A stretch of DNA of 64,000 nucleotides. Source: Kineothrix sp. MB12-C1 (GTDB lineage Bacteria > Bacillota > Clostridia > Lachnospirales > Lachnospiraceae). Positions 17,641-47,283 of this stretch are shown piece after piece (within the stretch, counting starts at the first letter, position 1; each line of letters begins with the position of its first letter). The stretch is taken from assembly GCF_030863805.1 (NCBI RefSeq), contig NZ_CP132957.1, forward strand, positions 2,666,001 through 2,730,000. The letters are read 5' to 3'. The notes beneath the pieces are model-generated. The model searched no databases. It was not told the origin of the DNA and saw only the letters and a program-made list of their open reading frames with translations. A program made the translations under genes and the position numbers.

Positions 17641-18495
17641 ATGGCAAAGGTTTCGATTTGTATTCCGGCCTACAATAACGTAGAAGGCATAGAACGATTG
17701 CTTGGAAGCATTGCTAAGCAGGATTATACGGACTATGAAATTATTATTACCGATGATTCTACGGATGATAAAGTATACGAACTCGTGAAAGGCAGGCCGG
17801 AGCTGCAATATTATCGGAATGAGAGAAGGCTTGGATCTACGGCGAATTGGAATGAGGCCATGAACAAATGCAGTGGTGAATATGTAAAAATTATGCACCA
17901 CGATGATTGGTTCACGGAAAGGGAAAGTCTTGGGAAATTTGTCCGCCTTTTGGCAGAGTGCCCGGAAGCAGATTTCGCCTTTTGCGGAACGAGACAGGTG
18001 GAAGCCGAGAGAAGCTATGACAGACATATTTCCGATGCGGATGTTTCTTTGATAAAAGAGAATTATAGGAATTTATATCTTGGAAATACCATAGGAGCTC
18101 CCAGTGCAACGATATACAAAAGGTCGGCGGGTGCTTATGATGAAAGTTTGGTATGGCTTGTAGATATGGAATTCTATATGCGAATATTGAAGAATAATCC
18201 ACAGTTTGCTTATACGAAGGAGCCTCTTATTTCCATAGGGGTAAGCAGTACGCAGCTTACCGAAAAGTGTATTGGTGATGAAAAGGTAAATATTCAAGAA
18301 TATGGTTATATTTATAAGAAATATCGATTGGATGAAGTGAAGGAATATAGAGCTAAGCTATTTCAGGTTTTTATGGATAATAACGCTTCTTATGAAATTG
18401 TCAGGAGCTTTGGGATATCGCACCTTACCTATAGCAGGGGAAGGCTGGCGAAGTGGATGGGGAAAGTAAAATGGAAATTGGGAATACGAAAATAA
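17641..18495 (+). CDS. Glycosyltransferase family 2 (GT-A fold), short form
   Basis: A 284-residue GT2 enzyme with ICIPAYNNVEGIERLLGSIA at the N-terminus, ITDDSTDDK, and the acidic motif HHDDWF (D88-D89) that corresponds to the DxD site. It ends with a basic region (RLAKWMGKVKWKLGIRK) that may bind the membrane. The SD-like AAGGAG occurs 8 bases before the start. The gene overlaps the next one (start 18471) by 25 bases. Donor and acceptor cannot be read from the sequence. Confidence 0.9.
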   Translation: MAKVSICIPAYNNVEGIERLLGSIAKQDYTDYEIIITDDSTDDKVYELVKGRPELQYYRNERRLGSTANWNEAMNKCSGEYVKIMHHDDWFTERESLGKFVRLLAECPEADFAFCGTRQVEAERSYDRHISDADVSLIKENYRNLYLGNTIGAPSATIYKRSAGAYDESLVWLVDMEFYMRILKNNPQFAYTKEPLISIGVSSTQLTEKCIGDEKVNIQEYGYIYKKYRLDEVKEYRAKLFQVFMDNNASYEIVRSFGISHLTYSRGRLAKWMGKVKWKLGIRK

Positions 18496-19619
18496 ACAGG
18501 GAAAAAGTTGCGAATGTCATTTTTTATATGATGCTTTTATTGGAGATTATAATCGTTGTTGTGGATAAGAGCGACTATATCAATCCGCTGGAAGGACAAT
18601 TGTTCCGTATTACATTTGTGCTTGCGGTGACGAAAATTATTCTGACCCAATATTCTATGAAGGAATGGATATGGATTTTTCTGTTTGGCGTGCTAGGGTT
18701 CATTTCCTATAAAATAACGGGGAGAAATGAAATATTACGAATTGTAGCATTTGTGGCATCGTGTAAGAATGTAGAACTGCATAAAATGATACGTTTTGTC
18801 TTTTATACGACGTTAGCAGGCTGCCTTTTGCTTATGTCTCTGTCGCTGGCAGGAATTTACGGCAATCTGGGGATTACGACAGATTTTGGCAGAGGGGTTG
18901 TGGAAACGAGATATTGCATAGGACTGGGGCATCCCAATGCGTTGCATTGTATGTTCTTTATGCTGGCCATTTTATATTTCTATCTTTATGAGAGTAAAAT
19001 GAGGTGGTACCACTTTGCCGCAGTATTGCTGTTAAATATGGGGCTTTTTATGCTTACGGATTCCAGAACAGGAATGCTTATAACGACAGCCACAATCTTG
19101 CTTGCGGCATTTTTTCACTATTTTCCTAAAGCTAGAAAGAATAAGTGGGTTTATATTGCGGGAATCTTAGTGTTCTTAGGCTGCCTGCTTTTATCGATAG
19201 CAGCCTCCAAATATGGATTGACGAATCCGCTTTTGGCAAAGCTGGATGGATTTTTGAACGGGCGGATTCTGGATTTGTATTGGGGATCGGTAAATCATGA
19301 AGGAACGATGGCGCATTGGAGTCTCTTTTCAGATGCCGGCAATAATTACTACTTCGATATGGGATTTGTAAGGGTATTCTATTGGTATGGTATCATTCCG
19401 GCAATTGTATATTTTACACTGAATATCATGCTGATATGGGAATGTTATAAGAAAAGAGATGCTATGGGATTTGTTATGATGGTAGTGCTTGCAATTTATA
19501 CTATTGTCGAAGCGCATATTATTTCTGTTTATATCGGCCGAAATTATATTCTGATGTTGCTCGCTGCTTATTGGGGGGACATGCTGATTCCGGAAAGGCG
19601 CAAGGGCGATGGTGTATGA
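18471..19619 (+). CDS. wzy: Wzy-like polysaccharide polymerase (no extra domain)
   Basis: A 382-residue membrane protein with about eleven helices. It carries the outside-loop sequence LGHPNALH and the downstream TDSRTGM, both seen in O-antigen polymerase/ligase (Wzy/WaaL)-like proteins. Such proteins join lipid-linked repeat units on the outer face of the membrane. ATG 18471 (MEIGNTK) is preferred to GTG 18453 because GGGGA lies at a good distance before it. It resembles the proteins at 29141 and 44241, which have the same membrane core plus C-terminal additions. The stop overlaps the next start in an ATGA arrangement. Confidence 0.78.
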   Translation: MEIGNTKINREKVANVIFYMMLLLEIIIVVVDKSDYINPLEGQLFRITFVLAVTKIILTQYSMKEWIWIFLFGVLGFISYKITGRNEILRIVAFVASCKNVELHKMIRFVFYTTLAGCLLLMSLSLAGIYGNLGITTDFGRGVVETRYCIGLGHPNALHCMFFMLAILYFYLYESKMRWYHFAAVLLLNMGLFMLTDSRTGMLITTATILLAAFFHYFPKARKNKWVYIAGILVFLGCLLLSIAASKYGLTNPLLAKLDGFLNGRILDLYWGSVNHEGTMAHWSLFSDAGNNYYFDMGFVRVFYWYGIIPAIVYFTLNIMLIWECYKKRDAMGFVMMVVLAIYTIVEAHIISVYIGRNYILMLLAAYWGDMLIPERRKGDGV

Positions 19620-27089: not shown

Positions 27090-27123
27090 TATGCGTGCTG
27101 GAGCATGCAGATGGGAGCCGGGA

Positions 27124-28209
27124 ATGACGGAACAAATTAAGAGAATGGAAAAAGAGGCGAGGCAGCAGTTGCTTCACTATCATGAAAAAGGCATTCCTCA
27201 GACAGTGAAAAACCTCATAAAAAAGACGGCGGGACGTTATGTGCCGCCGAATGACCTGATTTTCTGGCCGACAGGACTGCTCGCTAACGTGCTTATGGAA
27301 AGTTATGAGATGTGGGAAGATAAGGAAGCGGTTCTTATGGCGCTGACTACTTATTTTGACCGATGGATCGATAAGGGAATGCCTATTTATTATATGGATG
27401 ATATATTATGCGGTGTCGGACTTATCGATATATATAAAATGACTGGGAAAGAAATATACCGGATGGCGGCACATAAGATGGCAGAATTTCTGTATCAAAT
27501 GGAAGAGAAGGACGCGGACCGGGCAGGAAATCTTCCTTACCGCCCGACTCAAAAGAATTATCATATCTATGTGGACGGAATAGGAATGATCTGTCCGTTT
27601 CTTTGTAAATACGGGGTGGAGTTTGGAGAAGAGAGAGCGATACATCTCGCTATGAAGCAGATAAAGAATATGCTGTCTTATGGAATGGATGAAAAACTCG
27701 GATTACCATATCACGGTTATATGTATGAAAGTAAGGTGAAATATGGTATTATCGGATGGGGACGTGCAGTGGGCTGGCTTCTTCTCGGAATGGCCGGTAC
27801 CCTTAAATTCCTGCCTGCGGGATATGGAGGCAGTGAAGAAATTGTAAATGCGTTCAGAAAGTTGATATATAGTACATCGTCTTATCAGAAAGAAAACGGA
27901 GCTTTTGCATGGCAGCTGCAGGCGATGGAAGGACCGGAAGACAGTTCTGCTACAGCGATGATCGCACAAGCCATTTTGACAGGGATACAATGTGGTATTA
28001 TGGATAATGACAGTATGTGCCGGGAATTGACAAGAAAAGCCGGAGAATATCTTTCAAAATGCGAGAAGGATGGTCAAGTATATCATTGTTCCGGCGAATG
28101 TTTGGGATTTTCACAGTATCCACAAGTTTACGGAGCTTATCCGTGGTCGTTGGGACCGGGACTCGCTGTATTGTTAGGAACGAAAATGGAGGACTATAAT
28201 CAGTTATGA
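27124..28209 (+). CDS. GH88/GH105-like six-hairpin glycoside hydrolase
   Basis: A 361-residue soluble protein without signal peptide. Segments match the unsaturated uronyl hydrolase fold (GH88/GH105, YteR type): YMDDILCGVGL; IYVDGIGMICPFLCKYG, whose D151 corresponds to the catalytic Asp in the D-x-x-x-M-x-x-PF motif; WGRAVGWLLLG; and EDSSATAMIAQAI. In this family the enzyme removes an unsaturated uronic acid from a cleaved polysaccharide. Its occurrence in a synthesis locus between a flippase and a GT11 is unusual. ATG 27124 is preferred over 27091 because GGGAG lies 6 bases before it. The stop overlaps the next start (ATGA). Confidence 0.78.
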   Translation: MTEQIKRMEKEARQQLLHYHEKGIPQTVKNLIKKTAGRYVPPNDLIFWPTGLLANVLMESYEMWEDKEAVLMALTTYFDRWIDKGMPIYYMDDILCGVGLIDIYKMTGKEIYRMAAHKMAEFLYQMEEKDADRAGNLPYRPTQKNYHIYVDGIGMICPFLCKYGVEFGEERAIHLAMKQIKNMLSYGMDEKLGLPYHGYMYESKVKYGIIGWGRAVGWLLLGMAGTLKFLPAGYGGSEEIVNAFRKLIYSTSSYQKENGAFAWQLQAMEGPEDSSATAMIAQAILTGIQCGIMDNDSMCRELTRKAGEYLSKCEKDGQVYHCSGECLGFSQYPQVYGAYPWSLGPGLAVLLGTKMEDYNQL

Positions 28210-29105
28210 TTATTATACAGGTAGCCGGCGGGCTTGGCAATCAGATGCAGCAATACGCTTTATATCGGAAGTTCTTAAACCTTGGAATAGAAGCGAAGCT
28301 GGATATTTCCTGGTTTACGGAAGAAAAAAGACAAAGCGGTGTATTGGCGAAACGAGAGTTGGAACTGAATTATTTCGAAGGACTTGCATATGAAGTATGC
28401 ACGGAAGAAGAAAAACAAATACTAATTGGAAGAGGAAGATTTTTTGAGAAGGTAAAAGGAAAATTGTTTCCTCAGACGAAGAAAGTTTTCTATGAGACGG
28501 ATATGTACCATCAGGAAATTTTCAGTTTCCGGGATAAATATTTGTGCGGTTACTGGGCGTGCGAAAAGTATTATGCAGATATCGTGAGCCTTCTAAGGGA
28601 AGAAATAAGATTTCCGACAAGCGGTGATTTCAGAAATTTAGAGATGGCCGATCGAATGGCAAAAGAGGAGTCCGTCAGTATTCATATCCGTAGAGGGGAC
28701 TATCTCGATGCGGAGAATGAAGCGATGTTCGGCAATATATGCACGGAGGCTTATTATGAGGGAGCGATAAAAGAAATGAAGCGTCTCTATCCGAAGGCTC
28801 ATTTCTATCTATTTTCGGATGATATAGAATACGTAAAAAGGGCCTATAGAGGGGAAGAATATACAGTTCTGGATATTAACAAAGGCAAAGACAGCTTTTA
28901 TGATATATGGTTGATGAGCCGATGCAAACACAATATATGTGCCAATTCCACCTTCAGCTTATGGGGTGCCAGACTGAACGATAATTCGGAGAAGGTGGTG
29001 ATAAGGCCTTCTATCCATAAGAATTCGCAGAAATTTGACCCGCAGCTTATGCATGAACTGTGGAAGGGATGGATGCTCTTAGATAATGAAGGAAGAGTCG
29101 TATAG
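28206..29105 (+). CDS. GT11 family glycosyltransferase, alpha-1,2-fucosyltransferase type (second copy)
   Basis: A 299-residue GT11 enzyme with MIIIQVAGGLGNQMQQYALY, HIRRGDYL (H160, the same position as in the protein at 5700) and NSTFSLWGARLN. The insertion YLDAENEAMFGNICTEAYYE is also shared. Likely reaction: L-fucose from GDP-fucose to a hydroxyl (often O-2) of a galactose-like acceptor. It starts in an ATGA overlap with the hydrolase gene. It is similar to but clearly diverged from the first GT11, so the two probably serve different glycans or acceptors. Confidence 0.92.
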   Translation: MIIIQVAGGLGNQMQQYALYRKFLNLGIEAKLDISWFTEEKRQSGVLAKRELELNYFEGLAYEVCTEEEKQILIGRGRFFEKVKGKLFPQTKKVFYETDMYHQEIFSFRDKYLCGYWACEKYYADIVSLLREEIRFPTSGDFRNLEMADRMAKEESVSIHIRRGDYLDAENEAMFGNICTEAYYEGAIKEMKRLYPKAHFYLFSDDIEYVKRAYRGEEYTVLDINKGKDSFYDIWLMSRCKHNICANSTFSLWGARLNDNSEKVVIRPSIHKNSQKFDPQLMHELWKGWMLLDNEGRVV

Positions 29106-29140: not shown

Positions 29141-30694
29141 TTGGAGAATTTAAAGCTAAAAATCACAGTACAGGAAATTTGCTATTACTTATTTTTTTCA
29201 TTACTGTTTTTTGCAAAAGGAGCCGGATTATATGATGGACAGAATATTTTTAAAATATGTTTAATTCTGGGTGGAATTTGTCTGGCAGCAAAGCTTTTGT
29301 TTACGGAATATAAAGTGAAGGAATTAGTAATTATAGCAGTATTGTGCCTTGTAAGCATGCTTAGCTATTACCAAACCAGGGAAAAGGGAATTCTTTTTTC
29401 CCTTATGATGGTAATAGGATTAAAGAATATTCCATTAAAACGTCTGTTTAAAGTAGCACTTTTTGTATGGAGCATATCATTTATTCCTATGGTAATCATG
29501 ACTACACTCGGTTTGGTTTCAAGTCCATTCCGTGTACATGTGCGCCCCTTAGTAGGATTTGTTATCCGTTGGGGACTGGGAAGTGCACATCCTAATGTGG
29601 GTCATATGTCATATCTAATACTCGTTATATTGATTGTATATATTTTGGATAAAAAGGTATCATGGAAGTCCTGTGCACTCTTATTTATGGGAAACTGTTT
29701 TGTCTTTTTATATACGGTGAGTCAGACCGGATTTATCATGACGACATTTTATTTAATGGTCATTATGTATCTTTCGTATAGAAAGCAGCCTTCAAAATGG
29801 GAGTATGGGATGGTGGAATGCGTGCTTCCGGGATGTATTCTGGCATCCTTAGTACTTCCGATTCTCCTTACAGGAAAAGCTTTTGATATCTTGAATAAAT
29901 TGATGAATACAAGGGTTATGCAGTCAAAGCGCTATCTGACAGAAGAAAGGATTACCTTATTCGGCTCCAGGCTCGGACTAAATGATGCGGTTAATACAAT
30001 GGATAATTCTTATTTATTTGCATTTATGACATATGGAGTAATTACATTTATTATTTTAATGGCAGCCTATTTTTTTGTTATCAGAAGATATATAAAGGAA
30101 CGGAAAAATAAGGAATTAGCTATCATAGTAACGCTGCTGATTGCGGGGCTTTCAGAACCTTTCTTGTTTAATACTTCATTTAAAAACCTATCACTTTTAT
30201 TTTGGGGTGGTCTGATTTTCACGCCTATGAAACAGAATAGTTCATTATGGGGCAGGACTGTCTGTATTCTAAAAGGTGGGGATAGAGAAATGGAAATAGC
30301 GTTAGAGAAGGCCGTGAACGTATGCAGTAATATAAAAAAGTGTATTTCTGATTATAAGAAAGTTTTAGTAATTGGAGCAGTTATTTTCGCTTTACTTTGG
30401 CCTGGATCTTATATGATCACGGCGGTGAAACATACGGAAATCATCGTACCGAGAAACTTGTGCGACTCGACTGATTTGCCATCTGTCTATGTCGAGGATG
30501 GGATAGCCGCGGGGGGTGGACTAATTCTTGGATACAAGGATAAAGAAACACCGATGGTAGCATTTGAAGGTACGCTTCCCTCCGTTGAGTATATAAGAGG
30601 CATTATATGCAGGGCCGCTTATGGAGGGATGTTAGGTTTTATAGTTGTGTTAGGTGAACGTTATATGATAAAATATAGAGATTCAAGGAAATAA
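29141..30694 (+). CDS. wzy: Wzy-like polymerase with a short C-terminal two-helix module
   Basis: A 517-residue protein. Residues ~10-365 form a polymerase-like membrane core with about eleven helices, including GSAHPNVGHMSYL, the equivalent of GHPN in the protein at 18471, and SQTGFIMTTFY. Beyond the core a cytoplasmic stretch leads to a new helix (about 408-426), an outside segment of about 60 residues (about 430-488) and a last helix (about 489-505). This add-on resembles in layout, though not in length, the Wzz-like end of the protein at 44241. The TTG start rests on the strong ribosome site at 29124-29131. Likely role: polymerising repeat units, perhaps with built-in length control. Confidence 0.72.
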   Translation: MENLKLKITVQEICYYLFFSLLFFAKGAGLYDGQNIFKICLILGGICLAAKLLFTEYKVKELVIIAVLCLVSMLSYYQTREKGILFSLMMVIGLKNIPLKRLFKVALFVWSISFIPMVIMTTLGLVSSPFRVHVRPLVGFVIRWGLGSAHPNVGHMSYLILVILIVYILDKKVSWKSCALLFMGNCFVFLYTVSQTGFIMTTFYLMVIMYLSYRKQPSKWEYGMVECVLPGCILASLVLPILLTGKAFDILNKLMNTRVMQSKRYLTEERITLFGSRLGLNDAVNTMDNSYLFAFMTYGVITFIILMAAYFFVIRRYIKERKNKELAIIVTLLIAGLSEPFLFNTSFKNLSLLFWGGLIFTPMKQNSSLWGRTVCILKGGDREMEIALEKAVNVCSNIKKCISDYKKVLVIGAVIFALLWPGSYMITAVKHTEIIVPRNLCDSTDLPSVYVEDGIAAGGGLILGYKDKETPMVAFEGTLPSVEYIRGIICRAAYGGMLGFIVVLGERYMIKYRDSRK

Positions 30695-39617: not shown

Positions 39618-41375
39618 ATGATAAAAAAGCTAGGGTATATTTTTAACAAACAAGATAAGATAAAAATGGTCGGACTGCTGTTCTTAGTAGTGATAGGAAG
39701 CTTTTTGGAATTGTTAGGAGTTACCATTTTCATGCCGTTTATTGAAATTATAATGGACTCCTCTAAAATTAACGAAAACGAGATTCTGAAGTTTTTATAT
39801 ACAGAAGGGAATTTTCAAGCGGTGGAAAGCTTTCTCGCTTTTATAGCAGCAGTAATTATAGCAGTATATATTGTTAAAAATATTTTTCTATGGGTGGAGC
39901 AGGACTGTATTTTGAAGTTTTCCTATAATACGCAAAGAAAGCTATCCACTAAGCTTTTGACAACCTACTTGAATGAACCGTATACGTTTCATTTGAGAAA
40001 AAATGTGGCAGAATTGCAAAGAAGTACACAGGAAGATACCGGATTATTTACGCAGGCATTAATGCATGCATTACAGTTAATCGCAGAATTGGCAGTATGT
40101 ATGGTTCTTGGCATTTACTTATTTGTTGTCAGTCAATCGATTACTATGGTTATCTTAGTCTTATTGGTCGCGTGTGTAGCTGTCTTTACATATACCACCA
40201 AGAAATTTGCAAAAACGTTGGGCAAAGAAGCACAAGTCTATAAAGCTAAGCTGTATCAATGGGTGAATCAGTCTATCGGTGGTGTAAAAGAGGTGAAGGT
40301 TCTTAATCGTGAAAGCTTCTTTGTAGATTCCTATCAAAAGTATTATAAGCTCTATATAAGAGGTTTACGAATTAATAGATTGCTTGGAATGACACCGAAG
40401 TATATTGTAGAAGCGGTATGTATGACCGGCCTTTTGTGTGCAGTTATTGTCAAACTGTTTTTTGGCAGGAGGGATATTGAGAGTTTTATTCCACAGTTAG
40501 CAGTCTTTGCCGTGGCGGCATTCCGACTGTTACCTGCAGTTGGCCGTATCAATGAACATGTAAATAATATATTATATGCTTCTCCTTCTGTGGATTTAAT
40601 TTATCATGATCTGAGGGAGATAGAAAACTATCAGGAACAAATTGGCGAAGAGGAGAATAAAATCTGGAGCTTCGAACGAGGAATCGCGGTAAAAAGTATA
40701 ACGTATTCTTATCCGGAGTCAGAAAATCCTGTATTGAACCAAGTGAGCTGCTTTATTCCAAAAGGGAAGACGGTAGCCTTTATTGGAAGTTCGGGAGCAG
40801 GAAAGACAACTATGGTAGATATTATCCTTGGCTTACTTCCGCCGCAATTCGGAAAGATAAGAGTGGATGATATGAATGTCTATAAGAACCTATCCACATG
40901 GCATAAACATCTGGGATATATTCCGCAGGCAATTTATCTTTCTGACGATACGATTCGTAATAATGTAGCGTTTGGGATTCTACAAGAAGAAATTGATGAT
41001 GTGGCAATTATGGAGGCACTGAAGAAGGCTCAGTTATGGGAATTCATCGATAATCTTCCGGAAGGGCTGGATACTTTTGTAGGAGATAGAGGTGTTCGTT
41101 TGTCGGGAGGACAGCGTCAGCGAATTGGAATTGCAAGAGCGTTATATCATGATCCGGAGATTCTCGTGTTAGATGAGGCGACTTCCGCCCTTGATAGTGA
41201 AACAGAGACGGCAGTTATGGAGGCGATTGAAAGCCTGCAAGGTATGAAAACAATCATCATTATTGCACACCGCCTCACAACGATACGTAATGCGGATGTT
41301 ATTTATGAAGTAGTGGATGGGAATGTAATTGAACGTGAAAAAAGTTATGTTTTTAAAGAAGAAATGGAAAAATAA
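39618..41375 (+). CDS. ABC transporter, fused membrane and ATPase domains (PglK/MsbA-like flippase), second copy
   Basis: A 585-residue half-transporter with about six N-terminal helices and an ATPase domain: GSSGAGKTTM near residue 390, LSGGQRQRIGIARALYHDPEI, LVLDEATSALDSETE, and IIAHRLTT. It resembles the protein at 7630-9372 along its full length, including the shared SVEEAVCMTGLL/TIETVCMAGIL region, so they are paralogues. Lipid-linked oligosaccharide flipping is inferred from the PglK group. An extended -10 promoter lies just upstream. A ~37-base gap leads to the AT-rich membrane protein. Confidence 0.9.
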   Translation: MIKKLGYIFNKQDKIKMVGLLFLVVIGSFLELLGVTIFMPFIEIIMDSSKINENEILKFLYTEGNFQAVESFLAFIAAVIIAVYIVKNIFLWVEQDCILKFSYNTQRKLSTKLLTTYLNEPYTFHLRKNVAELQRSTQEDTGLFTQALMHALQLIAELAVCMVLGIYLFVVSQSITMVILVLLVACVAVFTYTTKKFAKTLGKEAQVYKAKLYQWVNQSIGGVKEVKVLNRESFFVDSYQKYYKLYIRGLRINRLLGMTPKYIVEAVCMTGLLCAVIVKLFFGRRDIESFIPQLAVFAVAAFRLLPAVGRINEHVNNILYASPSVDLIYHDLREIENYQEQIGEEENKIWSFERGIAVKSITYSYPESENPVLNQVSCFIPKGKTVAFIGSSGAGKTTMVDIILGLLPPQFGKIRVDDMNVYKNLSTWHKHLGYIPQAIYLSDDTIRNNVAFGILQEEIDDVAIMEALKKAQLWEFIDNLPEGLDTFVGDRGVRLSGGQRQRIGIARALYHDPEILVLDEATSALDSETETAVMEAIESLQGMKTIIIIAHRLTTIRNADVIYEVVDGNVIEREKSYVFKEEMEK

Positions 41376-42903: not shown

Positions 42904-44214
42904 ATGAAATTAGTAGTGGCAGGAACTGGTTATGTAGGTTTGGTGGCAGGAGTATGTTTTGCAGAAGTAGGCCATGATGTAACCTGTGTGGATGTGGATG
43001 AGAAGAAAGTAAAGTTAATGGAGTCTGGTATTTCTCCGATTTATGAAGAAGGGCTGGAGGAGTTGATGCAGAGAAATTATGCAGCAGGAAGACTTCATTA
43101 TACGGTAGATTACCAAAATGCTTATCGAGATGCGGATGCCATTTTTATTGGAGTGGGCACGCCGGAACAGCCGGATGGTTCGGCAAACTTAAGCTATATT
43201 GCAACGGTATCCAGACAGATTGCTGAATCGGTGGAAAGAGATTGTCTTGTAGTGGTGAAGTCTACGGTTCCGGTTGGGACGAACGATAAGGTGGAACAGT
43301 TTATTCGAGACTTCCTCATTAGAGATGTTAAGGTAGAGGTGGCTTCTAATCCGGAATTTCTCGCACAGGGTTCTGCTGTTCATGATACCCTTCATGCAGC
43401 TCGTATTATTATCGGCACGGAAACCAAAGAGGCAGAAGGACTGCTGATGAAGATTTATGAGCCGTTCCAAATACCGATTGTATCGGTTAGTAGACGAAGT
43501 GCGGAGATGACAAAATATGCTGCTAATGATTTTCTTGCACTTAAAATATCTTATATGAATGATATCGCGAATCTATGTGAATTAGTGGGAGCCAATATTG
43601 AGGATGTAGCGAAAGGAATGAGTTATGATGAAAGAATAGGTTCGAACTTCTTGAAGGCAGGTATCGGATATGGTGGAAGCTGCTTTCCCAAGGACACGAA
43701 GGCCTTAAAGTTTCTGGCTATTAATGCAGGATATCATCTGGAGACGGTAGAGGCGGCAGTGGAAGTTAATGTAAGGCAGAAAACAAGACTATTTAAGAAG
43801 GCAAGTAATCGAATGATTACTTTTGAGGGATTGAAAGTAGCGGTATTAGGGCTTGCTTTCAAACCAGGAACAGATGATTTAAGAGAAGCTCCGTCAATCG
43901 ATAATGTAGAACTTCTGCTAGCCCATGGAGCAGAAATCTATGCGTATGATCCAGTAGCGGTGGAAAATTTTAAAAGAAAATATCCAGAAGGTACGAATGG
44001 AAGAGGAAGAATTACATATGTAGATAATCCGGAAGAGGCTTTAAAGGGAGCGAATCTTTGCTTTATCTTCACAGAGTGGAAGGATATAAAGGAGATTTCT
44101 GAAGATACCTTTAAAAAGCTTATGCAGACACCGCTTGTGTACGATGGACGAAATGTTTATAACGTAGAATCTATGAAAGAACAAGGTGTGGAATATTATA
44201 GTATTGGTAGATAA
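42904..44214 (+). CDS. ugd: UDP-glucose 6-dehydrogenase
   Basis: A 436-residue enzyme that oxidises UDP-glucose to UDP-glucuronic acid with two NAD+. Visible are the NAD-binding GTGYVG (residues 7-12), GTPEQPDGSANL, KSTVPVGT, NPEFLAQGSAVHD, the catalytic Cys260 in GGSCFPKDTKAL, and GLAFKPGTDDLREAPS. It is full length for the TuaD/Ugd family. A GGAGG site lies 8 bases before the start. It is one of only two nucleotide-sugar enzymes I can identify in the window, and it implies a uronic acid in at least one glycan; this also gives the AsnB-like proteins a possible substrate. The next gene starts 26 bases after the stop. Confidence 0.96.
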   Translation: MKLVVAGTGYVGLVAGVCFAEVGHDVTCVDVDEKKVKLMESGISPIYEEGLEELMQRNYAAGRLHYTVDYQNAYRDADAIFIGVGTPEQPDGSANLSYIATVSRQIAESVERDCLVVVKSTVPVGTNDKVEQFIRDFLIRDVKVEVASNPEFLAQGSAVHDTLHAARIIIGTETKEAEGLLMKIYEPFQIPIVSVSRRSAEMTKYAANDFLALKISYMNDIANLCELVGANIEDVAKGMSYDERIGSNFLKAGIGYGGSCFPKDTKALKFLAINAGYHLETVEAAVEVNVRQKTRLFKKASNRMITFEGLKVAVLGLAFKPGTDDLREAPSIDNVELLLAHGAEIYAYDPVAVENFKRKYPEGTNGRGRITYVDNPEEALKGANLCFIFTEWKDIKEISEDTFKKLMQTPLVYDGRNVYNVESMKEQGVEYYSIGR

Positions 44215-44240: not shown

Positions 44241-46088
44241 ATGACGAAGAACAATTTAAAGGAGTTTTCCTATTACCTGTTTTTCGGGTTAATGATTTTT
44301 GCAAAAGGAATAGGGCTGGATAGCGGAGATAAAATATATTACCTTTTAAGCGCGGTGGCATGTGTTTGTGTGGCCTTAAAACTTGTATTGACCCAATATA
44401 ATAAAAAGCAAGTCGTGGCTATGATACTTTTATGTCTCATAGCCTTTGTTGCATATAGGAATTCGGGGAGAATGGGAATTGTACTAACTACACTTACCGT
44501 TGTTGGAATGAAGGATATGAAGGTGCATAAGTTGTTTCACTTAGGGGCAGTCATTTATGGAATTTCTTTCATGTTAACAGTAATTTTGGCCGGAGCTGGA
44601 GTTATAACTAACCCAATGGTAGTACATGAAAAGGGCGGAATTGGCGAAGTTATCCGATGGGGAATGGGATATAGTACAGGGAATGTATTCCACATATCTT
44701 ACTTTATATTAACTGCATTCCTATGCTATTGTTGGGGAAGAAATTATAGGTGGAAGAAGATGCTGGCACTTATGACTGGTAATATACTTGTTTTCCTGTT
44801 TTCCCTCAGTTATACAGGTGTAGTAGTAACTACTTTCTATCTCCTGCTTAATTTATATGCAGTAAAGCGTCAACGCTTGAATAAAGTCGAAAAGATAATC
44901 TGCCAGCTTGTCCTACCTTTTAGCGTGTTATTTTCTCTTTTAGCTCCTTTGATATTACAATATCCACTGATGCAGAAATTAGATCATATGTTACAAGCGC
45001 GATTATCCTTTTCCGGTTATTATCTGTTGAATCAGCCGATTACGATGTTTGGGGCAAGAATGCGAGATATCCCGGGGTTCTGGGTTATTATGGATAATGG
45101 ATACGTTTATTTCTTAATGACTTTTGGTATAGTAGCTTTTATTTTATTTTATGTGGGATATGCTATTATAGTAGCACGGATGACAAGGAAGCAGAAAGAA
45201 AGGCTTCCGGCATTGGCTATGATATTTTCCTTTTTATTGTATGGGATTATGGAGCAGTTTATCTCCAATGCGTTTATGAATATTTCCCTTATTTTCTTAG
45301 GGGAAGTTCTATTCGGTGAGGAGGCAGGGGAAGAGGTGTCTTCACCTATTGCAGAAAAATGGAGATATGCACTTAACGAAGTTATAAAGAATAGAAAATA
45401 TATTTTGGCAGGAAGCATTAGTTTCGGTGCTATAGGGGTAGTTGCTTATCTTTCGCTTGGTGTTTCTCCGCTATATGTAGATGTTCCGATAGGGGCATTG
45501 AACTATGTGGATGCACAAAGTGTTATTGTGAATGTGAGAAATGAAGAGGGAACGAAAGATGCCCTGAACGAGGAAATGAATCGTTATCGGGAGTTGATAG
45601 AAGAAGATATCATTCTCAAGAATGCATTAGATGAGGCTGGATTATCCGATAAACTGACAGAAAATGAGATAAGATTTGCGTTGGAGTTCTCTCTTCCGCA
45701 GTCCATTCATAGAAGCGGTGATTACCATTCCTTCCGCATTCGATTGTTGGAGCTGTATTATGATGTGACGGAAGAAGAATATCGGGAAGTACTCCAATAT
45801 CTCATGGCAGAGGCTAGCGAGCGCCTTGATGTTATCGATATTGACAATGAAGTATCCGGCAGTGTTTATTCGGAAAGAATAGGGAAAAGTTTCGGTGAAG
45901 ACCGAATTGAGCATATTGATATTGAGAAAAACTATCTCGTGGAAAAAAGCGGTAGCATTGTACGGATTGAATATTTCAGGAATAGTATCTTGAGTGCGCT
46001 GGGGGGAGCTCTTGCCGGTGGTATATTGATTGTAATAGTAGATCTGATTCGCTATAATATAGGAAAACAAAGGAAGATAGAACGGTGA
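44241..46088 (+). CDS. Wzy-like polymerase fused to a Wzz-like chain-length domain
   Basis: A 615-residue protein. Residues ~8-365 form a polymerase-like core with about eleven helices, similar in order to the proteins at 18471 and 29141, including WGMGYSTGNVFHISYF in the place of GHPN and LSYTGVVVTTFY. After a linker, a new helix (about 388-406) is followed by ~175 outside residues (about 407-581) rich in charged helices, then a final helix (about 582-602, SALGGALAGGILIVIV) and a basic tail. That two-helix layout is the hallmark of Wzz/PCP co-polymerases that set chain length, and the Ala/Gly-rich last helix also fits. Separate Wzy and Wzz proteins are the rule, so a fusion is unusual. The assignment of the second half is by layout, not by firm homology. 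Confidence 0.62.
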   Translation: MTKNNLKEFSYYLFFGLMIFAKGIGLDSGDKIYYLLSAVACVCVALKLVLTQYNKKQVVAMILLCLIAFVAYRNSGRMGIVLTTLTVVGMKDMKVHKLFHLGAVIYGISFMLTVILAGAGVITNPMVVHEKGGIGEVIRWGMGYSTGNVFHISYFILTAFLCYCWGRNYRWKKMLALMTGNILVFLFSLSYTGVVVTTFYLLLNLYAVKRQRLNKVEKIICQLVLPFSVLFSLLAPLILQYPLMQKLDHMLQARLSFSGYYLLNQPITMFGARMRDIPGFWVIMDNGYVYFLMTFGIVAFILFYVGYAIIVARMTRKQKERLPALAMIFSFLLYGIMEQFISNAFMNISLIFLGEVLFGEEAGEEVSSPIAEKWRYALNEVIKNRKYILAGSISFGAIGVVAYLSLGVSPLYVDVPIGALNYVDAQSVIVNVRNEEGTKDALNEEMNRYRELIEEDIILKNALDEAGLSDKLTENEIRFALEFSLPQSIHRSGDYHSFRIRLLELYYDVTEEEYREVLQYLMAEASERLDVIDIDNEVSGSVYSERIGKSFGEDRIEHIDIEKNYLVEKSGSIVRIEYFRNSILSALGGALAGGILIVIVDLIRYNIGKQRKIER

Positions 46089-46101: not shown

Positions 46102-47283
46102 ATGAGAATAGCAATTGATTTGACTTCTCTGGCGGACAATTTTTCGGGGATAGAGCGTTATGCGATGAGTATCACACAGGAATTAATTGATCTGGACAGC
46201 GAGCAAAAACATACTTATATCTTGTTATTTAAAAATAAAGTCCATGAAGATTTCAGGAGATATGCAGACAAAAAAAATGTTGTCTGTAAGGTGTATAAAG
46301 GGCAGAATAAACTGGTATTCCAACAGATTATTTTGCCATTCCATCTCTATGGAATCAAGGCAGACCGCTATCTCTTTCTGGCCTTTCAAAGCCCGGTTCT
46401 CTTCTGGAAAAGAGGAATATACAATACGATACACGATCTTACCAGTTGGGACTGCCCTGAGACGATGAAGAAGAAGATGGAATTATATTTTAAGCTGACC
46501 ATTCGCAGTGCACTGCTTGTCAGTGAAGGAATTATTGTGAATTCGAAGTTCACGCGGGACAGAATTATGGACAAGTTCCGTTATAATAAAAATAAAATTA
46601 CACTTGCCTATTGTGGAATCTCGGATGTGTTTATGGATTATGTGGCAGACCAGCCACAAGCTGCGGCACAGGGAGAAGAAAAGAAAGAAGAAACGATAGA
46701 CCGGTTGGAGAAAATAAGAAACCGTTCTCTAGATATCCGCCGTAAATATCATCTTCCTGAGCAGTATCTTCTCTGCCTTGCGACTTTGGAGCCTCGCAAG
46801 AATCTTCCCTTTCTTGTGGAAGCTTATGTGGAGTTGCTAGAGGAAGGAAGTGTAGATATTCCTCTTGTCCTAGCAGGAAGAAAAGGATGGAAGATGGACG
46901 AATTCCTCGATAGAATTGAGGAAGACTATAGAAGGAATATAGTGGTGACAGGATTTATCGACGATGAAGACCTGCCATATGTATACCATATGGCGGACTG
47001 TTTTATATTTCCATCTATCTACGAAGGCTTCGGTATGCCTCCCTTAGAGGCCATGACAGTAGGAACTATGGTGATTTCCTCCGATGCGGCATCCTTGCCG
47101 GAGGTTCTTGGAATGGCAGCATCTTATTTTCGTTCCGGTGATAAAGAAGAACTGAAAGAAAAAATGCGCCAGGGAATTCATCAGGAATGTGATGCAGTGA
47201 CGATAAAGGAGATTAAGAAAAGGGTGGAAATGTTCCAATGGAGAAGATCTGCTGAGAAGGTTTATAGAAGAATGAGATTGTAA
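46102..47283 (+). CDS. Glycosyltransferase family 4
   Basis: A 393-residue GT4 enzyme: MRIAIDLTSLADNFSGIERYA, NTIHDLTSWDCPE, ATLEPRKNLPFLVEAY, and SIYEGFGMPPLEAMTVGTMV (E-x7-E). It resembles the GT4 at 22130 and mannosyl/rhamnosyl transferases. An insertion of about 35 charged residues (AAAQGEEKKEETIDRLEKIR) lies between the domains. The stop codon sits in a possible terminator hairpin (47266-47298), followed by a promoter, so this gene probably ends a transcription unit. Confidence 0.9.
   Translation: MRIAIDLTSLADNFSGIERYAMSITQELIDLDSEQKHTYILLFKNKVHEDFRRYADKKNVVCKVYKGQNKLVFQQIILPFHLYGIKADRYLFLAFQSPVLFWKRGIYNTIHDLTSWDCPETMKKKMELYFKLTIRSALLVSEGIIVNSKFTRDRIMDKFRYNKNKITLAYCGISDVFMDYVADQPQAAAQGEEKKEETIDRLEKIRNRSLDIRRKYHLPEQYLLCLATLEPRKNLPFLVEAYVELLEEGSVDIPLVLAGRKGWKMDEFLDRIEEDYRRNIVVTGFIDDEDLPYVYHMADCFIFPSIYEGFGMPPLEAMTVGTMVISSDAASLPEVLGMAASYFRSGDKEELKEKMRQGIHQECDAVTIKEIKKRVEMFQWRRSAEKVYRRMRL

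Follow-up and report, generated by a model that had tools for sequence, protein, structure and literature searches.

A Wzy-like protein carrying a C-terminal PCP-like lobe in the same chain throughout the genus Kineothrix

Polysaccharide co-polymerases (PCPs) have been described in several forms. Those of the Wzz/CpsC type (PCP-1 and PCP-2b; PF02706) are separate proteins in which a lobe of alpha/beta type lies between two helices; in PCP-2a proteins, to which Wzc belongs, the membrane part is found in one protein with a kinase domain (PMC12220298). A polymerase and a co-polymerase acting together are seen in the WzyE-WzzE complex, in which Wzy occupies the lumen and each WzyE is accompanied by about eight WzzE (PMC10030265). 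Here we describe a protein encoded at positions 44241..46088 of a 64,000-nucleotide stretch of the Kineothrix sp. MB12-C1 chromosome (contig NZ_CP132957.1, positions 2,666,001 to 2,730,000; hereafter the window), which differs from these systems: its PCP-like lobe is joined to a putative polymerase rather than to a kinase domain, and the two parts stand one to one by construction rather than as two proteins at about eight to one. No description of a natural Wzy-Wzz fusion was found in the open literature, subscription journals and general protein databases lying outside the scope of that search. The Wzy and PCP parts are already known; what is new, as far as we have seen, is their covalent pairing and a series leading from a mini to a full module.

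Kineothrix is a genus of gut bacteria. Strain MB12-C1 is an isolate from the faeces of black soldier fly larvae with a chromosome (CP132957) of 3,935,490 bases (PMC10793289). Kineothrix alysoides is among the closest relatives of its genome. A sequence-only reading of the window had seen a Wzy polymerase in residues 1-365 of the protein and, in residues 388-602, two helices enclosing an outside domain of about 175 residues, as in Wzz. Hydropathy places the two helices at 388-406 and 582-600, in agreement with that layout. The protein and its two relatives in the window comprise the following features.

44241..46088, + strand: fused Wzy-PCP gene, a single open reading frame (ORF) of 615 aa (stop included)
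44241..45314, + strand: polytopic core of the Wzy_C superfamily, residues 1-358, from kinship with the 29141 and 18453 proteins and a profile match of fused and mini cores
45315..45401, + strand: linker, residues 359-387, predicted cytoplasmic, 22-95 residues long across 16 proteins
45402..45458, + strand: first transmembrane helix of the module (TM1), residues 388-406, from hydropathy; helix 8-29 of the module model
45459..45983, + strand: PCP-like ectodomain, residues 407-581, from a structural model, VIA-align, and hhalign to Wzz with controls
within the ectodomain, close to TM2, + strand: conserved GEDRIEH, residues 552-558, from the alignment of fused proteins
45984..46040, + strand: second transmembrane helix (TM2), residues 582-600, followed by a short basic tail, from hydropathy
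29141..30694, + strand: sister Wzy whose two-helix module is of the mini type, with about 60 residues in the ectodomain, from search, module comparison and tree
18453..19619, + strand: more distant Wzy without a module, from search and tree

The reading frame at 44241-46088 is intact, with no internal stop, and a search of the nearest 98 genomes found the fused protein as one frame in 16/16 members of the genus (MB12-C1 and 15 same-genus genomes), the remaining 82 genomes giving four matches, all to the core only. Since the single-ORF layout recurs in every member, a sequencing or frame artefact is excluded, and the earlier idea that one polypeptide fixes the Wzy:PCP ratio at 1:1 holds across the genus. 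All 16 modules have two hydrophobic segments, so that the lobe is flanked by helices as in PCPs. The ectodomain is acidic (19 K/R against 38 D/E), the C-terminal tail is basic, and the ectodomain probably faces the outside, the orientation with both ends inside having been read from charge in one protein only. Mean column identity across the 16 proteins is 62% in the core and 37% in the module; the latter evolves faster, yet it retains invariant residues including G552, D554, R555, I556, E557 and H558 (GxDRIEH). Fourteen pairs sharing 60% identity or more, drawn from 14 of the 16 proteins, were compared for the ratio of non-synonymous to synonymous substitution rates (dN/dS): the core, with a finite dS in 13 pairs, ranges from 0.05 to 0.16 and the module, in 10 pairs, from 0.08 to 0.37, many dS values being close to saturation.

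What kind of domain is the module? An AlphaFold (AF2) model of it, with a predicted local distance difference test score (pLDDT) of 86.4, gives the outside lobe a PCP-like fold, as the sequence-only reading had anticipated. Its 17 best structural rows are Wzc and KpsE entries, and FepE and WzzE are likewise among the matches, so that several PCP classes are represented (VIA-align, an alignment of Foldseek's own best 1000); Wzc, the best match, aligns from TM1 to TM2. When the module profile was compared with 24 Wzz/CpsC proteins by hhalign, the score lay above column-shuffled and reversed controls, and in a comparison of the ectodomain only, the matching region was the helical part around 'SR.VLE.VI..L.L' of Wzz. 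A sensor, a protease or another known domain, raised earlier as what might be found instead, gave no match of substance at the C-terminus in Pfam or NCBIfam. A sequence search of solved structures with the C-terminal part returned three weak matches (best E 0.023, ancMT), which we judge to be due to chance.

The Wzy part of the earlier proposal stands as a Wzy_C-superfamily core at residues 1-358, and falls short in that curated Pfam cut-offs are not reached. A profile of fused and mini cores matched 30 PF04932-type proteins with a score of 57.6 over 192 columns (30 shuffles gave at most 19.2, the reversed profile 21.5), revealing a colinear polytopic core in which PN, S.TG, an Arg and (H/D)N.Y...G are landmarks common to both sets, whereas the 16 fused cores alone gave no match to the PF04932-type profile (score 20.5, P 0.07). 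PF11846 (E 0.017; 15.5 bits against a cut-off of 28.5) and PF04932 (E 0.65) each appeared in 1/16 members, and a sequence search of solved structures with the core gave two weak matches (E 0.34 and 1.1). Besides this low Pfam score, the fused protein differs from the superfamily in an Asp at the position of a His and in its C-terminal two-helix module.

Searching the genome with the fused protein brought up two related proteins, both inside the window. The 29141 protein shares 35% core identity (residues 5-358) and the 18453 protein 25%; the ectodomain of the former has about 60 residues, where the fused protein has about 175, and the latter, whose start had been put at 18471, has no module, in accordance with the natural series noticed from the sequence. 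The mini type accompanies the fused type in 13/16 genus genomes, as judged by match and frame length, and in the 17 proteins compared its ectodomain measures 59-81 residues, with one exception, L084 (36 residues and a weak second helix). In a survey of 299 Lachnospiraceae genomes from 299 genera, MB12-C1 included, the core was found at E <= 1e-10 in 16; MB12-C1 aside, on our reading nine of these carry a short module and six none or a different C-terminus. The protein matched in L086 (L151) has 407 residues and no module. In a tree of the cores, midpoint-rooted, with several long branches and with five of the 13 genus mini-type copies left out, the fused clade (16 rows, support 100/99) and the mini clade (17 rows, 95/92) are sisters (33 rows jointly, 96/98), and six module-free cores lie outside them.

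The fused and mini modules have the final strand, an E..R motif and TM2 in common (41 columns, score 43.7; 100 shuffles, which broke up TM2 too, gave at most 18.7); with a smaller set the probability was 47.7. Because the last strand and TM2 are shared, the simplest reading, and a probable one, is a single gain of the two-helix module, which was later either enlarged, to a PCP lobe in Kineothrix, or shrunk elsewhere. A recent fusion of a canonical wzz gene is not favoured, given the sister clades and the parts common to both modules; a Wzz lobe may nevertheless have been swapped in later. Counting toward a fusion of this kind is the helical part, which matches Wzz and is missing from the mini module. 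The only similarity of the mini module itself to Wzz lies around TM1 (score 26.6, against a maximum of 16.9 in 100 shuffles) and may reflect no more than the likeness of one helix to another.

Other joinings within one frame were also encountered, their labels being assigned by eye. In L085 (G243) a mini-module Wzy lies in a 1211-residue frame, 861 residues of which were read, together with WecG/TagA-like and GT4 parts, and in L089 (G147) and L093 (G218) a Wzy core and a glycosyltransferase-like C-terminal part share one frame (815 and 769 residues).

The survey for the same domain pair found it in all 16 genus genomes and nowhere else that we judge real. Outside MB12-C1, the module search of the Lachnospiraceae set (298 genomes, at most nine candidates scored in each) brought up only four weak matches (E 0.002-0.005), which we judge to be chance and which look by eye like three histidine kinases and a regulator-like protein, and none was found in the 390 other genomes of the class (391 including MB12-C1, partly overlapping with the Lachnospiraceae set; at most seven candidates scored per genome) or in a scan of virus contigs. 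A core-plus-module profile matched in 15 of the 391 class genomes. Among the matches listed, just two frames longer than 600 residues fall outside the fused family, L141 (964-2784) and L152 (1261-3075), both in G434; they encode Wzy-like proteins of about 605 residues in which a single additional helix and a large tail, unlike the PCP module, are present. The other out-of-family frames listed have 156-385 residues. For a canonical Wzz fused to a Wzy, the longest PF02706 frame among the matches listed from the 391 class genomes has 505 residues. A PF02706 search of 61 genomes yielded long frames of 592, 541 and 529 residues, and a sub-threshold one of 537; read by eye, the first three have an N-terminal Wzz followed by a kinase-like part, the last resembles a flagellar ring protein, and no Wzy was seen in any of them.

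Does the cell have a separate co-polymerase as well? MB12-C1 has one Wzz match, about 680 kb from the fused gene, whose best NCBI match is a CspC-family chain-length model, below cut-off. A stand-alone Wzz above the Pfam cut-off is present in 8/16 genus genomes. Of the other eight (seven at least 92% complete, one 83%), seven have no PF02706 match at E <= 0.01 and one has a sub-threshold match that reads as a flagellar protein. Since eight of the 16 genomes show no Wzz above the cut-off, the fused lobe may be the sole co-polymerase in about half of the genus, as far as PF02706 detects.

We consider it fairly probable that the fused protein is a Wzy-type polymerase for lipid-linked repeats with an in-chain PCP lobe at its C-terminus, which would control chain length in cis. 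On the outer face, the lobe would sit next to the active site of the polymerase, hold the growing chain and set processivity and chain length, each polymerase carrying its own regulator at a ratio of one to one. Each chain contributes a single Wzy together with a single lobe, so the fused protein alone cannot build a ring of eight lobes around one Wzy; it would therefore act as a monomer, as a small oligomer, or as a ring that keeps the Wzy bodies on its outside, and the linker of 22-95 residues is compatible with any of these. Several departures from Wzz weigh against this interpretation. PF02706 matches 0/16 modules at E <= 1, nor does any other Pfam model match them; the proline-rich segment ahead of TM2 was not found, the last 30 ectodomain residues containing no proline in 14/16 modules and one in 2/16, where all 24 proteins of the Wzz comparison set have 1-3; and the cytoplasmic tail that follows TM2 in that set (consensus 'DDTIK..EDVEKYL') is absent from the fused proteins. 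The module, to judge from its residues, is thus not a textbook Wzz; it is PCP-built, though not classed as Wzz. Could the likeness come from a common sandwich fold alone, in an unrelated two-helix alpha/beta domain? With several PCP classes among the structural matches, two kinds of them topping the list, Wzc aligned through both helices and the profile comparison exceeding its controls, we find this highly improbable. A lobe that is PCP-derived in fold, no longer sets length and instead docks the polymerase to a flippase or a wall-attachment enzyme is rather unlikely, although it would suit the missing proline segment, the highly conserved GEDRIEH beside TM2, which was not found in the Wzz set, and the shorter sister modules, which share just the final strand and TM2 with the fused one; the Wzz-matching helical part, needless for a simple docking tail, has been kept.

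The fused protein probably joins sugar units into long chains, but does it polymerise or ligate? The Wzy_C Pfam model covers polymerases and ligases alike. That the core is a WaaL-like ligase of the same superfamily, and the whole a ligase with a PCP lobe, would accord with the description of this model as O-antigen ligase and with the weak, below-cut-off matches to curated Wzy models. At window 45093-45104 (residues 285-288), however, the fused proteins have Asp in 'DN[SG]Y' where PF04932-type proteins have His in 'HN.y', a His that we take to be catalytic in WaaL, and we know of no PCP partner for ligases. For polymerases one is known from the Wzy-Wzz pairing (PMC10030265). Sequence does not decide between the two activities, but because of the PCP lobe and of the Asp at the His position the polymerase is favoured, and a ligase seems improbable.

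Glycan genes follow one another at length in the window, many of them GT4 and GT2 glycosyltransferases, and the following accompany the fused gene.

46102..47283, + strand: GT4 glycosyltransferase, with a relative downstream of the fused gene in 10/11 relatives' loci
42904..44214, + strand: gene of the UDP-glucose dehydrogenase family that closely precedes the fused gene
39618..41375, + strand: ABC transporter, flippase candidate; best NCBIfam match PglK, below cut-off
20718: polyprenyl-phosphate sugar transferase
25485: weak flippase match, below Pfam cut-off
7630 and 39618: two ABC transporters of one type
54445 and 55682: ABC pair with a Wzt C-terminal domain
61432: RgpF

The relative of the 46102 gene immediately adjoins the fused gene in seven loci; in the eleventh locus (L005) the available stretch ends about 2 kb past the fused gene and the relative is not within it. 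Upstream genes differ among the relatives' loci (ORFs of at least 180 residues). Since the GT4 relative follows and the upstream genes vary, the fused gene appears to lie between a conserved glycosyltransferase set and a variable part, which is where one would expect a polymerase of repeat units. A GH88 glycoside hydrolase gene and a GT11 gene lie within the glycan cluster at window 27091-29105, and their relatives immediately precede the fused gene in L008, L009 and L011. Upstream of the window, an open frame of 907 residues contains a Wzy_C-type match at C1:2647798-2648082, and matches of this type are found repeatedly in the genus in frames 901-976 residues long.

Joint control of polymer length by Wzz and Wzy is not settled in the field, and a natural one-chain version cannot form the published complex without extra subunits. 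It would offer a single construct in which the lobe could be removed or swapped, and the none, mini and full forms in one genome make a ready-made comparison. More tentatively, and with some doubt, a co-polymerase may have been built into the polymerase in this branch of the Lachnospiraceae, the module having been gained once and serving as a short clamp in other genera and as a full PCP lobe in Kineothrix, with length control in cis and without a Wzz ring. If this is true, Wzy proteins with 'extra' C-terminal helices would be cryptic polymerase-co-polymerase fusions.
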